Shown here: one piece after another, positions 49,027-56,826 of the stretch
Layout: every line of letters starts with the position of its first letter
Numbering within the stretch: position 1 is the stretch's first letter
Notes under the pieces: model-generated
Told to the model about the DNA's origin: nothing
The model's input: the letters and a program-made list of their open reading frames with translations, nothing else
Databases searched by the model: none
Assembly (NCBI RefSeq): GCF_002894645.1
Contig: NZ_NCQY01000030.1
Coordinates: forward strand, 1 to 64,000
From: Salinibacter altiplanensis
GTDB taxonomy: Bacteria > Bacteroidota > Rhodothermia > Rhodothermales > Salinibacteraceae
DNA length: 64,000 bases
Direction of reading: 5' to 3'
Made by a program: the position numbers and the translations under genes

Positions 49027-50691
49027 TTACTTGGAGATCGTGACGCGGCCCACGGCCCGGCGGCCCTGGTCTGATGTCACTACGTATCGGTACAGGCCGG
49101 GCGGGAGGCCATCGACATCAACGGCAAGGCGGTTGGGGCCCGGGTGCCCCGCCCGTTCAACATGGCGCACCCGTCGTCCGAGTGGGGTGTGTAGGGCAAG
49201 CCGGAAGGTCGTCGTGTGGACAGGGGCGGAAACCGGGATGATGAGGGAAGAGTCATCGGTGGCCCGGTACGGCGTTGAGGCCTCCAGAGTGGGCGGTGCC
49301 GTGCGGCGTGCCTGCCACTCGGCGTGTCGGACGGCGGCCTCGGCGTTTACGATGCCCCAGCCACGCGTAGTATCGGGGGCGTGGGCCTGAGAGGCGGTCG
49401 TTCGAAGAAGCGTCCGAACCTGGATCGGGCCCAGCGTGGGGTTGATCTGCAGCATTTGGGCGACGATTCCGGTGACCTGGGGACTGGCGAAGGAGGTGCC
49501 GCTGACCCGAGCGTACTGATCGTTCTCCCACGCGGCCGGCACCTTCTCCCCCTGTACCACCACGTCCGGCTTGCGGCGGCCGTCCGCTGTGGGGCCGCGG
49601 GCACTGAAGGTGGCAACCGACGAGTCGGGGGCGATGGCGCCCACCGCGATGGCCGAGTCGGCGTCGGCGGGCGTGTTGACGTAGAACCAACAGCCCTTGG
49701 GAGCGTCGCAGCCGCTGTTGCCGGCACTGACCACTACCGTTACGCCCCGCCGGGCGGCTTCGTCCACCGCCCGCGTGGTGAGGGCCGTATCCCCGTCCAG
49801 GTCATCAGGGGAGTAGCTGCGCTGGCCGTCGTCAAAGCGAGTGTAGCCGATCGAGGCGTTTACCACGTCCACCCCCTGGCGCGTGAGCCATTCGAGGCCC
49901 GCCACGAAGTTGTCCTCCTCCACGTTGCGCTCGTACTGGGTAAATTCTGTCGTCGCCCCCCACACGGTGGCCCCGTGGGCCGGCCCCACGAGCGAGCCTG
50001 GATCGTAGCCGGCGGCCACGGACACGACGCTAGCCCCGTGGGTCCCCCCCTGTTGTCCAGCCGTCACGTCCCGGAGCCCCCCGAGCCGATCATTCGCTCG
50101 CAGGTGCGAAAACACCGGGTGGCGAAGACCGGCGTAGTTCGCGTCCAGAAAGCCGACGTCCACGCCGCGCCCGTTCAGCCCTCGGGCCAGTGGAGAGAGG
50201 GCGTTGATGCGGGACAAGGGCCCGGCCGCAGCCCCTGGGGCCGGCGGCGACGGGTCGGGGGCCCCGAAGGAGTGGCCGAGGGGGCGAAGCGAGGCCACCG
50301 GGCGCGTCTTCTGGACAAAGGGAAGTCCCGCCACCGCGGCACGGGTGTCGGGGGAGAGCCACGCGGAGACGGCGTGAAGCCAGCGGCTCCGCACGAGGGG
50401 CCGGACTCCGAGGGCCCGAAGGCGGTCGAGAAATGCCGGCGCTACCGGACGTGCGGAAGAGGAGGCACGAGCGGGTGCGGCTTCTGAGGGACGGTTCGTC
50501 AGAAGGATCCAGTATTTGTCCGCGGACGTGCTATCGACGGAAAGGGCCTTGGCTGGCTGTACGGTACACAGTGCCCCCACCGAGACCGCAATGGCCAAGA
50601 GGCAGAGCGTCTGGGCGGACCAAGCCGAGACCTGAGACAAGAGCCCCGCGGGCAGAATGTCCCCGCGAGTGGGCGAGCGTGACTCACACAT
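49027..50691 (-). CDS. Secreted subtilase (S8) with sorting-type C-terminal tail
   Basis: 554 residues from the ATG at 50691 ('MCESRSPTRGDILPAGLLSQ'); an upstream in-frame ATG at 50721 lies inside the antiporter gene. A signal sequence is followed by a propeptide-like region. The catalytic triad falls in 'GVDVGFLDANYAGLRHP' (Asp), 'GGTHGASVVSVAAG' (His) and 'VSGTSFASPQVTGIVAQML' (Ser). The C-terminal 'VDGLPPGLYRYVVTSDQGRR' resembles type IX secretion sorting tails. The start codon overlaps the last codons of the antiporter gene by 8 bases, suggesting translational coupling. Confidence 0.9.
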   Translation of the reverse strand: MCESRSPTRGDILPAGLLSQVSAWSAQTLCLLAIAVSVGALCTVQPAKALSVDSTSADKYWILLTNRPSEAAPARASSSARPVAPAFLDRLRALGVRPLVRSRWLHAVSAWLSPDTRAAVAGLPFVQKTRPVASLRPLGHSFGAPDPSPPAPGAAAGPLSRINALSPLARGLNGRGVDVGFLDANYAGLRHPVFSHLRANDRLGGLRDVTAGQQGGTHGASVVSVAAGYDPGSLVGPAHGATVWGATTEFTQYERNVEEDNFVAGLEWLTRQGVDVVNASIGYTRFDDGQRSYSPDDLDGDTALTTRAVDEAARRGVTVVVSAGNSGCDAPKGCWFYVNTPADADSAIAVGAIAPDSSVATFSARGPTADGRRKPDVVVQGEKVPAAWENDQYARVSGTSFASPQVTGIVAQMLQINPTLGPIQVRTLLRTTASQAHAPDTTRGWGIVNAEAAVRHAEWQARRTAPPTLEASTPYRATDDSSLIIPVSAPVHTTTFRLALHTPLGRRVRHVERAGHPGPNRLAVDVDGLPPGLYRYVVTSDQGRRAVGRVTISK

Positions 50692-51637
50692 ACAAGAACA
50701 CCATAAACCCCAGAAAGGCAACCACCATGAATGCCCCTTTCATCCGAGTAATTCTTTGATCCCACCAGGTCAATGGCACCACCAGGGCACAGAACCCAAT
50801 CATGACAGGAAAGTGCAGGCGGATCGTTTCCGGATCGACCGTAATGGGCTCGGCGATGGCCAGCGTGCCCACGACGAACAGCACATTCAGAAGATTGCTC
50901 CCGATGACGTTGCCCACGGTCATGTCGACCTCCTGCTTTAGGGTGCCCACCATGGAGGCCGCCAGCTCGGGGAGGCTTGTGCCAATCGCCACCACCGTCA
51001 GGCCAATCACGACATGGTCGATGTTCAGGACATCCGAGATCGCAAGGGCGTTGTCGACCATTAGATGCGCCCCGAGCGTGAGCCCCCCCATGCCGCCCAT
51101 CACGTAAACCGTCTTGGCCAGGGCGGAGAGCTCAGGGTCGGCGGCGTCAAGTTCGCCCTCCATGCTTTCGAGAACGGTGCCCCTCGTGGTCTGGTGGGCG
51201 TCGTAGAACACGTAGGCCGCGAGCCCTGAGAGCAGGATCACCATCACGATGCCGTCCCTGGCGCCGATCACGCCGTCGAGGGCGCAGAGATAAAAGAGGA
51301 CCATTACGCCGAGCATCACGGGGTACTCGCGCCGCAGCACTTCGGGCGTGACGGCGAGGGGCAACACCACGGCACACGCCCCAAGGATGAGGGCCACGTT
51401 GCTAATGTTGGAGCCGATGATGTTGCCGATGGCAAGTGGGGACTCCCCCGAGATCAACGCAAACACGTTGACCAGATACTCCGGCATTGACGTTCCGAGG
51501 GCGACCACCGTCAGTCCCAGGATGACGGGGCGAATTCCGTACTGTAGGGCAATGCTGGAGGCGCCCTGAATGAGGCCCTCGGCGCCCAGGTAGAGCAGCA
51601 GCAGGCCGACGAAGAAGAGAAAAACGTATAGGATCAT
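50684..51637 (-). CDS. Calcium/sodium antiporter, YrbG-type CaCA family
   Basis: 317 residues and about ten membrane helices. Two inverted CaCA repeats are visible: 'VVALGTSMPEYLVNVFAL' with 'GNIIGSNISNVALILGA' in the first, and 'VVAIGTSLPELAASMVG' with 'GNVIGSNLLNVLFVVGT' in the second. It exchanges Ca2+ for Na+ across the inner membrane. An acidic loop joins the halves. Its last codons overlap the start of the downstream subtilase. Confidence 0.95.
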   Translation of the reverse strand: MILYVFLFFVGLLLLYLGAEGLIQGASSIALQYGIRPVILGLTVVALGTSMPEYLVNVFALISGESPLAIGNIIGSNISNVALILGACAVVLPLAVTPEVLRREYPVMLGVMVLFYLCALDGVIGARDGIVMVILLSGLAAYVFYDAHQTTRGTVLESMEGELDAADPELSALAKTVYVMGGMGGLTLGAHLMVDNALAISDVLNIDHVVIGLTVVAIGTSLPELAASMVGTLKQEVDMTVGNVIGSNLLNVLFVVGTLAIAEPITVDPETIRLHFPVMIGFCALVVPLTWWDQRITRMKGAFMVVAFLGFMVFLYV

Positions 51638-51856: not shown

Positions 51857-52660
51857 CTACGAGACGTCGAGCAGGGCTTGTCCCCGGAACGACCCTGGCA
51901 GTAAGGCCGAGACACTGGAGCGCTCATGGGGCGCGCTGTGTCGATCCATCCAAAGCGTCGCTTCCGGGGCGAGTTCCGCGAGAAGCTGGCGGCAGGCCCC
52001 GCACGGTGTAGCGTCGGGGTCGTCGCGGCACGTGAGGTAGAGACGGTGCGGCGTCGGGAGTGCGTACGACTGCACGGTGCCAAGGGCGTTGCGCTCCGCG
52101 CAGAGGATGCGAGCCCAGTCCGGGTGCTCCACGTTGACGCCCGGTACGCAGAGGGTGTCCTGAATGTCGAAAAGGGCACCCACTGGGTACCCGGATGCGG
52201 GCACGTGGGCCCGCTGAGCCACACGGCGAACGGCTTGAATGCCCTCTTCCGCCTCGCCGATGGAAGCGTTGAGACTGGGAGGGTGGCGAGCCTTCATGGA
52301 GGGCAGCGATCCGCCCCCCCCTGCACCTTGAACCCAGGCGTCGTCGGCGCACGGCTCGAAGGGGCCCTGGGGCAGATCTTCGACGTACAGGGCTTCTTCC
52401 CGACGGAAGGAGCGCGAGAGCACGAAGGCCGCAATCGATGCGCTGCGTTCGAGGGCGACGGCTGTGGTGTAGGCGTTGAGCAGGGCCGGGATCGTGAGTG
52501 AGTACGAGGCACTCTCCACGCGCACCCCAGGGATCCATCGACCGTCGTCCAAGAGGAGCACCGCTGCCGTAGGGGTTTCGGAGAACGGCACGTAGGCACG
52601 GGACAGCAGATCCTCCGCCCGGCTGCGGAGGGAATCGAGGGTGGAAGCGCGTGGGGACAT
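51857..52660 (-). CDS. Cytidine deaminase with two CDA domains, the first degenerate
   Basis: 267 residues from the ATG at 52660. The C-terminal domain (about 138-260) is active-type: 'ILCAERNALGTVQSY' (zinc-ligand Cys187 and catalytic Glu189) and 'DATPCGACRQLLAELAP' (Cys220, Cys223). The N-terminal domain (about 8-100) has the same fold pattern ('RAYVPFSETPTAAVLLLDDG') but neither a CAE nor a PCxxC motif. This is like the dimeric E. coli Cdd, in which one half is catalytic and the other degenerate, but here the catalytic copy is C-terminal. It converts cytidine or deoxycytidine to uridine. Confidence 0.88.
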   Translation of the reverse strand: MSPRASTLDSLRSRAEDLLSRAYVPFSETPTAAVLLLDDGRWIPGVRVESASYSLTIPALLNAYTTAVALERSASIAAFVLSRSFRREEALYVEDLPQGPFEPCADDAWVQGAGGGGSLPSMKARHPPSLNASIGEAEEGIQAVRRVAQRAHVPASGYPVGALFDIQDTLCVPGVNVEHPDWARILCAERNALGTVQSYALPTPHRLYLTCRDDPDATPCGACRQLLAELAPEATLWMDRHSAPHERSSVSALLPGSFRGQALLDVS

Positions 52661-52988
52661 GGGCGGAGAGGTTGTCCGGAATTGGCAAATCGGGCCGGGG
52701 CGAATCGGTGGGAACAGAGGGAGGTTCCCTCCTGAGAATCTGTTTCGGTTTTGGATTGAATGGGGAAAAGCATCGATGAGCCGAAGATCGGCGCAGGGTC
52801 GAGGGCTGTGGGGGAACGACCGCCCGAGAGCGGGGGCGATTTGCCGGCCCTCGCTGCTGGTCGGTGCCCCGAGACGCAAATTGAAACAGGCTCCGAAGGA
52901 GGAAGCGGTCCGAGGTGACCTTTCGGTCGAACCGGCTGGTGCTTACACTTGGTAAAACCGCTCCTGTTGTAACACGCTGCCGTCCCAC
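52661..52988. promoter_or_regulatory. Divergent gap between cytidine deaminase and an unknown acidic gene
   Basis: 328 bases between two divergent starts. It ends with CCTGTTGTAACACGCTGCC just before the ATG at 52989. The 11-mer CCTGTTGTAAC also occurs on the minus strand upstream of sufB. I see no gene here. Promoters for both neighbours must lie inside, but I cannot place them. Confidence 0.4.
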
Positions 52989-54895: not shown

Positions 54896-55175
54896 GCCGG
54901 GGTGGCGGAATTGGTAGACGCAACGGACTTATTGAATGAGTGCCAGGGCGGAAACGCCCCGCGTAGAACTGCTCAACGTCAGGGAAGCCTTTCACCTGGT
55001 AATCCTGAGCCAAGCCCGACCCTGGGAAGGTGCAGAGACTTGACGGGCAGCACCTACGTCCAGCCGGATATGGTGAAGAGAAAGTCCAGGCCACGCACCC
55101 ACCAATGAAAATTGGAGTGGTACGAAAATCCGTTGGGCCCTGTGGCCCGTGTGGGTTCAAGTCCCACCCCCGGTA
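54896..55175 (+). tRNA. trnL-UAA: tRNA-Leu(UAA) interrupted by a group I intron
   Basis: Exon 1 is 54896-54930 and exon 2 is 55125-55175 (86 nt spliced). The acceptor GCCGGGG (54896-54902) pairs with CCCCGGT (55168-55174). The D arm is 'GGCGGAATTGGTAGACGC'. The anticodon stem ACGGA (54923-54927) pairs with TCCGT (55129-55133), enclosing the loop CTTAAAA with anticodon UAA at 54930/55125-55126. A long variable arm (GGGCC...GGCCC) fits a class II tRNA-Leu. The T arm is 'GTGGGTTCAAGTCCCAC'. The 3' CCA is not encoded. The gap after the first anticodon base is the intron. Confidence 0.95.
54931..55124 (+). ncRNA. Group I intron (subgroup IC3-like) in the tRNA-Leu(UAA) anticodon loop
   Basis: 194 nt inserted after U34. 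The guide GAGT (54938-54941) pairs with the exon end ACTT, giving the U.G pair at the 5' splice site. The intron ends with G at 55124. Core elements read as follows: P 'TCAGGGAAGCCT' 54979-54990, Q 'AATCCTGAGCCAAGCC' 55001-55016, R 'GTGCAGAGACTTGACGGGC' from 55030, S 'AAGAGAAAGTCC' 55076-55087. P2 is a GGGCG-GAAA-CGCCC hairpin (54946-54959). These match the cyanobacterial trnL-UAA intron closely. No open frame fits inside, so it has no homing endonuclease. Confidence 0.95.
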
Positions 55176-55938
55176 CCGTTTTGTGCACCGCAGAGTGCCC
55201 ATGACCGGGCCCGTGCGGGAGAGGAGCGCGAGGGAGGCAGAAGCTGCTGGGCCCCTCATCGGCTCGGCCTCCGAGTTGGCCGAGCACACCGTTCTACGGC
55301 ATATTCTCATCGATTCGGGGCCAAGCTGGCTCAATCACGACTCCGCTGATCTCATTGCTACGGTCGAAGTCGGTCTCCAGACCGGAAAGAAACTCTTCGG
55401 TGGCGGCCTGACCGGCGGCGATGTCGAGGGGAAAGAGTGATGAAGGAGCACGCCACGCAGAAGATGACGAAGGACAAGGGGAGGGCCCCGTGTCGCGGCC
55501 TCGAACGTGCGGGCGCAGGCCCCAAGCGACTCGTTCCCTGAATTGGGTGCCTCGGTGGCATGGAGGCAGGGGCGGGCAAAACGAGCGTCCAGCTCGGGGC
55601 CCACCGTCAAAGTGCTCCGCTTCGATTGTGGCCGTCACGTGGGCCGGTACGCCCCGACGGAGGGCCGTGAAGTAGCTGGCATGGCTCTGCTAGGGGCGTG
55701 CCTCTCCGAAGGTCTGATTGAGCTTTCCGAGAACAGCGACAATCGATCGGGACACGGGTGGGCACTGGCTCCTGGGCAATGGACTGTTCGACAGGAGGTT
55801 CATTTCCGAAACACCTGTTCTGTAACGGGACGACCGGTCGTTGTGGGCGCGACACGAGGGCACGAACCAGATGGGCGTGGTTCCGTAGTCCCGTGCGGCA
55901 TTCGCTTGGAGTCTCGTAGATTGATTTGACGCACCCCG
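55176..55938. other. Gene-poor 0.76-kb region between the tRNA and panC
   Basis: No frame on either strand has recognisable motifs or a plausible composition over more than about 90 residues. One minus-strand segment near 55294-55440 reads 'AAGQAATEEFLSGLETDFDR', protein-like, but breaks into low-complexity Arg/Ser/Pro upstream. Together with the efflux remnant on the other side, this suggests old decayed insertions around the tRNA gene. No attachment-site repeat is visible. Confidence 0.4.

Positions 55939-56826
<888 letters not shown>

Follow-up and report, generated by a model that had tools for sequence, protein, structure and literature searches.

The group I intron of tRNA-Leu(UAA) is the textbook ancient intron of cyanobacteria and plastids, and the introns of Azoarcus tRNA-Ile(CAU) and of proteobacterial tRNA-Arg(CCU) belong to subgroup IC3. 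A trnL intron is also said to have been reported in a gammaproteobacterium by Vepritskiy in 2002. PMC4853749 names proteobacterial tRNA-Leu-TAA introns in BOGUAY and Thiomargarita, and a 2014 review (PMC3984707) states that evidence for horizontal movement of bacterial introns between species is scant and that every phage intron known by then lay in a protein-coding gene. Here we analysed a stretch of 64,000 nucleotides from Salinibacter altiplanensis (the window), in which a tRNA-Leu(UAA) gene is interrupted by a group I intron. With the cyanobacterial/plastid intron it shares the host gene, the site between U34 and A35 and, as judged against cyanobacterial introns, the P1-P9 architecture, but its core is only 60-62% identical to cyanobacterial ones, P3 and P9 have another sequence and it falls in a separate clade. 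With proteobacterial trnL-UAA introns it has the host gene in common and, for the alpha- and gammaproteobacterial loci analysed here (the comparison concerns these loci and not the BOGUAY, Thiomargarita or Vepritskiy sequences), also the site, their cores being the nearest to it beyond the class; host phylum and exons differ. The Azoarcus and tRNA-Arg(CCU) introns are similar in their anticodon-loop location and core motifs but interrupt other tRNAs at 36/37, where our splice scan also found introns in tRNA-Ile(CAU) and tRNA-Arg(CCU). The window intron may resemble subgroup IC3. Judged by titles and abstract openings, the literature found in our searches reports no trnL intron in Rhodothermota or Salinibacter, and the window intron newly adds trnL-UAA group I introns to a host group for which our literature search found no report.

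In its normal mode ARAGORN called no tRNA in the window. When introns were allowed, or when it was given the spliced exons, it returned tRNA-Leu(taa) with a 194-nt intron in the anticodon loop, a placement shared by our splice scan (Table 1), and the exons so joined have an intact class II tRNA fold. Default annotation can therefore overlook genes of this kind. A cmscan search matched Intron_gpI (RF00028) at 54921-55117 on the plus strand with 55 bits, above the gathering score of 50 (E 3.2e-11), and this was the sole Rfam match at gathering threshold in the 64 kb. A first-pass annotation, made from the letters of the sequence, had proposed a group I intron in tRNA-Leu(UAA) at the site of the cyanobacterial/plastid intron, a tRNA fold appearing only after removal of 54931-55124, a guide/exon U.G pair, a P2 hairpin with a GNRA loop and a terminal G. 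The scans above bear out the intron, its site and the dependence of the fold on its removal, and the smaller details also hold: the splice-site U.G pair is invariant in 12 of 12 aligned trnL introns, the last base is G in all 12 (position 55124 in the window) and the P2 loop is GAAA. The intron boundaries also stand. A small correction concerns the 3' end, where position 55174 closes the acceptor stem, 55175 is A73 and CCA is not completely encoded.

Table 1. Features of the interrupted tRNA-Leu(UAA) gene and its neighbours, in window coordinates.
Feature	Position	Strand	Evidence
Na/Ca exchanger gene, in the same upstream block as the cytidine deaminase-like gene	50684..51634	-	Pfam, synteny
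Cytidine deaminase-like gene, upstream, in block shared with intronless relatives	51857..52876	-	Pfam, synteny
tRNA-Leu(UAA) gene, whole	54896-55177	+	ARAGORN, introns allowed or exons pre-spliced
tRNA-Leu(UAA) 5' exon, last base U34	54896..54930	+	ARAGORN (intron mode, spliced exons); geometric splice scan
Group I intron, 194 nt, last base G	54931..55124	+	RF00028, 55 bits; covariation; ARAGORN and splice-scan boundaries
P2 hairpin GGGCG-GAAA-CGCCC	54946..54959	+	All five pairs with two-sided changes
Core P3-P8 and P9 terminal hairpin	54969..55115	+	Hand-drawn structure, pairing counts
tRNA-Leu(UAA) 3' exon, first base A35	55125..55177	+	ARAGORN; splice scan
panC (pantoate-beta-alanine ligase), downstream	55939..56826	+	Pfam, flank comparison

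The structure was examined in an alignment of 12 trnL introns, 7 of the same bacterial class and 5 cyanobacterial, on which a hand-drawn P1-P9 model of 52 pairs was compared with 500 shuffles. Paired cells amounted to 90.3% (shuffled mean 78.7), 26 pairs showed two-sided changes (16.5 in shuffles) and the covariation score was 0.390 (0.175 in shuffles), with 0 of 500 shuffles as high for any of these three measures; the number of further pair types (45 against 44.7) showed no excess in the 12 introns. Versions of the structure slid along the alignment scored just 0.06-0.11 for covariation. Pairing across the 12 rows was complete in P3, P4, P6, P7 and inner P8 and reached 97.2% in P6a, so that the covarying core helices P3, P4, P6, P7 and P8 are 97-100% paired save for outer P8 (55.9%); P5 (77.8%) and the P9 base (79.2%) are also weaker. 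P3 switches from CUG/CAG to GCU/AGC with its pairing preserved. Folded by itself, the intron has an unremarkable minimum energy (z -1.28), a value that carries no information because the structure is a pseudoknot. The RF00028 match, a tRNA called only when the intron is allowed or spliced out, and covariation above all shuffles therefore identify 54931-55124 as a group I intron well beyond chance.

The genome to which the window belongs (30 contigs, 99.75% complete) gave 46 tRNA-model matches, corresponding to 45 distinct genes by ARAGORN, which finds no tRNA in the 46th. The other leucine tRNAs are CAA, CAG, GAG and UAG only, and RF00028 has a single match in the whole genome. The first-pass annotation had considered that a second intact tRNA-Leu(UAA) might make this one a dead copy; neither the tRNA model nor ARAGORN found one in the genome, and the intron-bearing gene is the sole dedicated UUA reader found there. 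UUA accounts for 2 of 305 leucine codons in seven genes (an eighth, hbd, was left out because it had been read in the wrong frame), and because the codon is so rare the essentiality of this tRNA is assumed.

The first-pass annotation had also called the intron nearly the cyanobacterial one, which our comparisons do not support. Its core is on average 0.600 identical to 15 cyanobacterial trnL introns (best 0.622) and 0.727 to 13 alphaproteobacterial ones (best 0.767), and no Leu(UAA) group is farther from it than the cyanobacteria. Leaving aside the window's own clade, the nearest cores are those of alphaproteobacteria, of two other genomes of the phylum (G1247 and G1338) and of G020, a member of the same family; further comparisons gave the same order, and phage introns (mean 0.651, best 0.681) are not the nearest relatives. 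P3 is CUGCUC/GGGCAG in the window and in most of the alphaproteobacteria shown, and GCUCUC/GGGAGC in cyanobacteria. In a 44-row tree the 15 cyanobacterial rows form a clade of their own (support 100/99), and the window intron is thus not nested among them; its clade lies in a 27-row non-cyanobacterial set (98/97), with a second clade of the family, B, between that set and the cyanobacteria. A 55-row tree places the window's clade, A, in a 38-row set with proteobacterial, plasmid and phage rows (99/97). The tree alignments kept 186-202 columns. Trees restricted to Leu(UAA) are preferred because a 70-row tree over all tRNA sites drew warnings about long branches, and a slightly better arrangement with A+B escaped its free search; the restricted trees carry warnings of their own for long rows (C_G020, megaphage, F_G054 and others), and the bootstrap was unsettled in the 55-row tree and one further tree. 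When the window's clade was forced to be sister to the cyanobacteria, AU tests did not reject the arrangement (p 0.427, 0.241, 0.206 and 0.283), and the best trees place it elsewhere. Given these tests, the comparison of sequences amounts to a strong lean, rather than an exclusion, towards kinship with proteobacterial, plasmid and phage trnL introns and away from cyanobacterial ones. The lateral movement suggested by the first-pass annotation stays plausible, with identities and trees speaking against the cyanobacterial source it had in mind. The argument from rarity of the intron outside cyanobacteria proved weaker than claimed, with same-site introns in alpha- and gammaproteobacteria, in two more genomes of the phylum, on plasmids and on viral contigs.

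Among 27 genomes of the family, seven carry the trnL intron (G000, G003, G004 and G010; G007 and G009; G020) and 15 an uninterrupted tRNA-Leu(UAA), the remaining 5 being incomplete and assigned no state. RF00028 missed the G020 intron even at E 0.001, and it was accepted on DNA similarity, site and alignment; class-wide counts with this model, at least 31 of 244 genomes, are therefore lower bounds. In a phylum sample of 394 genomes 15 had any match, and G1247 and G1338 carry the intron at 34/35 (site by eye). On an rpoB tree of 26 rows, eight carriers, including G219 from another family, occupy four places, which requires at least four changes, and the trnL intron is patchily gained or lost among close relatives. 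Such relatives, with and without an intron at one site, make gain, loss and transfer directly testable; in one case, G020, unlike tRNA exons occupy a shared locus. As side observations made by eye, the tRNA-Leu(UAA) intron of L328 (G054) lies one base earlier, at 33/34, with a matching guide, and the spliced anticodon stems of L327 and L335 (G1247 and G1338) would carry a C28-U42 mismatch.

The exons point to two different histories. Those of the window are of family type, 0.918 identical to the intronless G011 and at most 0.753 to four cyanobacteria; because they are resident-type, either the intron came alone into a gene that was already there, or it has long been present and most relatives have lost it. 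The G219 exons are 0.89 identical to gammaproteobacterial and 0.88 to alphaproteobacterial rows, up to 0.835 to cyanobacteria and at most 0.812 to their own class, and the G219 intron falls inside an alphaproteobacterial/plasmid clade (95/91); by these similarities the tRNA gene seems to have been imported whole, intron included. The G020 exons encode CCA and are unlike those of its siblings (0.80 identical to G026), at a locus where the G026 gene is ordinary and intronless, and the whole gene was probably replaced.

The surroundings of the gene vary as well. Among 24 trnL loci, mostly compared over 1.5 kb flanks, panC lies beside trnL only in clade A. Ten loci were compared further: the upstream block is common to six of them, two with the intron (G000, G020) and four without (G001, G005, G012, G026); G007 and G009 show synteny with each other only; the intronless G008 has a stretch further downstream in common with G005; and the G219 locus has nothing in common with the other nine. 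A tblastn search with the G020 HNH protein revealed no HNH gene or remnant near the window trnL, and Pfam scans of the six adjoining ORFs revealed no other endonuclease type; within this scope, no homing endonuclease gene, the mark of a mobile intron, was found in the intron or next to it, in line with the first-pass annotation.

That the gene is a dead or unspliced copy, with UUA read some other way, would agree with the rarity of UUA in the genes counted. We consider this highly improbable, since the class II fold and the core are intact, compensatory changes are present, the intron is retained in four related genomes and no other UAA gene was found in the genome. Acquisition from a cyanobacterial donor, perhaps one met in hypersaline mats, would account for the same site and the same overall fold, and the AU tests tolerate it (p 0.21-0.43); it is nevertheless improbable, and was disfavoured as a candidate, in view of core identities of 0.60 against 0.73 to alphaproteobacteria, the cyanobacterial clade (100/99) that excludes the window, a P3 sequence unlike that of cyanobacteria and like that of most alphaproteobacteria shown, and host-type exons.

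A single acquisition before the radiation of the family, followed by vertical descent and about ten losses, is possible, though we doubt it. The resident-type exons of clade A fit such a history, general considerations allow for loss through recombination with a spliced copy, and AU tests do not reject A+B or A+B+C as single clades, A+B even scoring slightly above the free tree in the 70-row analysis of all tRNA sites. Against these points, some ten losses would stand in place of three gains within the family (counted by eye on the rpoB tree; the minimum is four changes when G219 is included), the introns of clades A and B are only 0.65 alike, and A+B+C+D as a single clade is disfavoured, though not rejected, with AU p 0.097 in the 70-row tree and 0.080 or, without C, 0.116 in Leu(UAA)-only trees.

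The reading that we prefer, and hold with good confidence, is that the sole tRNA-Leu(UAA) gene found carries a group I intron which should self-splice, that this intron is of a lineage present also in proteobacteria, plasmids and phages rather than of the cyanobacterial one, and that endonuclease homing may be one route of its spread; we infer the splicing, the essentiality and the route of arrival of the window intron. Judging from the anatomy and the family, the end of the 5' exon would pair with the internal guide in the transcript, a guanosine bound in P7 would attack after U34, the freed U34 would then attack behind the terminal G, and the ligated exons would form a tRNA that reads UUA codons. 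In the window's clade either of the two histories compatible with resident exons may apply, and elsewhere in the class the whole intron-bearing gene would have been replaced (G219 and probably G020). Homing driven by an endonuclease is suggested because an HNH gene is linked to trnL in viral contigs and in G020.

With the window gene, blastn matched 1,264 plasmid records, 922 of them typed conjugative. In an intron-only search, 38 of 40 rows spread over the ranking had the same match (query 8-168, 70.2%), so that most plasmid matches are probably one segment. The three plasmid regions analysed have an aac(3)-II resistance gene nearby, with trnL and its intron complete in two and truncated in one. 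These loci of enterobacterial plasmids (L222, L223 and L227) have exons that equal those of the alphaproteobacterial L284 at 79 of 82 bases (by eye), a hint at the origin of the segment. Bradyrhizobium plasmids have their own intron-bearing trnL, one complete and one without the 5' exon. Genes adjoining intron-bearing tRNA-Leu(UAA) at L141:13524-15728, L225:2841-5253 and L222:776-1909 have matches among candidate defence families (PDC-S46; TrlF/Ppl-like, this one under the cut-off; and PDC-S36), consistent with a tRNA gene at or in mobile islands.

Among viruses, two records that seem to belong to a single uncultured phage of 735 kb matched over 98% of the query, and 77 stretches of viral contigs fit the intron-core pattern; the splice scan put 2 of them in tRNA-Leu(UAA) and 21 in other tRNA-like contexts, 50 having a low score and 4 no tRNA. 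In G020 the remnant of an HNH endonuclease gene (L136:9432-9914) immediately precedes trnL; it contains a stop and what appears to be a frame change, and it matches a homing-endonuclease model (E 6.7e-21) and phrog_14736 and no Pfam model. On a viral contig, an intron-bearing tRNA-Leu(UAA) is directly preceded by a relative that is intact (47% over 90 aa, E 1e-22). A viral scan with this intact HNH confirmed 10 loci, nine with tRNA-Leu(UAA) and its intron directly downstream (about five distinct sequences), and RF00028 matched all nine introns at E 0.001, one of them below gathering score.

A further viral scan with an HNH alignment gave 204 loci, of which we considered the best 80, the nine contigs included, with 56 distinct HNH stretches. 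Among these best 80, the HNH gene overlaps or adjoins an interrupted or uninterrupted tRNA-Leu(UAA) in 36: the abutting tRNA gene bears an intron in 15 (L360 assigned by eye) and is uninterrupted, starting at most 20 nt from the end of the HNH match, in 21. One more has another intron-bearing tRNA (L382, Lys by eye), and 43 have different tRNAs nearby, Leu(UAA) further away, or none. The HNH reading frame extends 10-57 nt into the tRNA in all 11 loci checked. The loci with HNH and tRNA-Leu(UAA) (L352-L424 and L344-L350) are viral contigs with tRNA arrays. This arrangement points to an HNH endonuclease tied to tRNA-Leu(UAA), with the intron riding along in some loci. The viral HNH resembles in sequence HNH endonucleases of Escherichia phages annotated as F-TflIV or homing endonuclease (about 40% over 112 residues); here its gene overlaps tRNA-Leu(UAA), sometimes with a group I intron, and nothing of it was found in the window. 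For the window intron the link to phages is indirect, because no trace of HNH was found there and its closest relatives are not phage introns. Both statements of the 2014 review (PMC3984707) are touched by the trnL introns that viral tRNA arrays carry next to an HNH gene. Of wider interest than the intron itself are the repeated gain or loss inside a single family and the HNH-trnL cassette.

More speculatively, and as a scheme we think unlikely, tRNA-Leu(UAA) might be a homing locus of phages and bacteria, at which an HNH endonuclease, its gene overlapping the 5' end of the tRNA, would cut genes lacking the intron close to the anticodon, whereupon repair would copy endonuclease, exons and intron as a cassette; bacteria would then lose the endonuclease and be left with bare intron-bearing genes, that of the window included. 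If true, this would explain the scattered bacterial trnL introns and possibly the cyanobacterial/plastid one too.

Other group I introns of the class were also seen. In two families of the same order, f15 and f12, tRNA-Arg(UCU) is interrupted at 36/37 (L033, L034, L036, L041, L043, L102, L103, L105, L106, L108 and L111-L114), and in family f15 the initiator tRNA (fMet) carries them at 33/34, directly after U33 (L044-L046, L107, L109, L115 and L116). The splice scan, which gave these sites with ties settled by eye, also placed introns of the class in tRNA-Ile(CAU) at 36/37; L048-L050, from family f15, hold group I introns in a tRNA gene that ARAGORN calls inconsistently as Ala or Asn, and L042 and L047 are introns in 23S rRNA (by eye).
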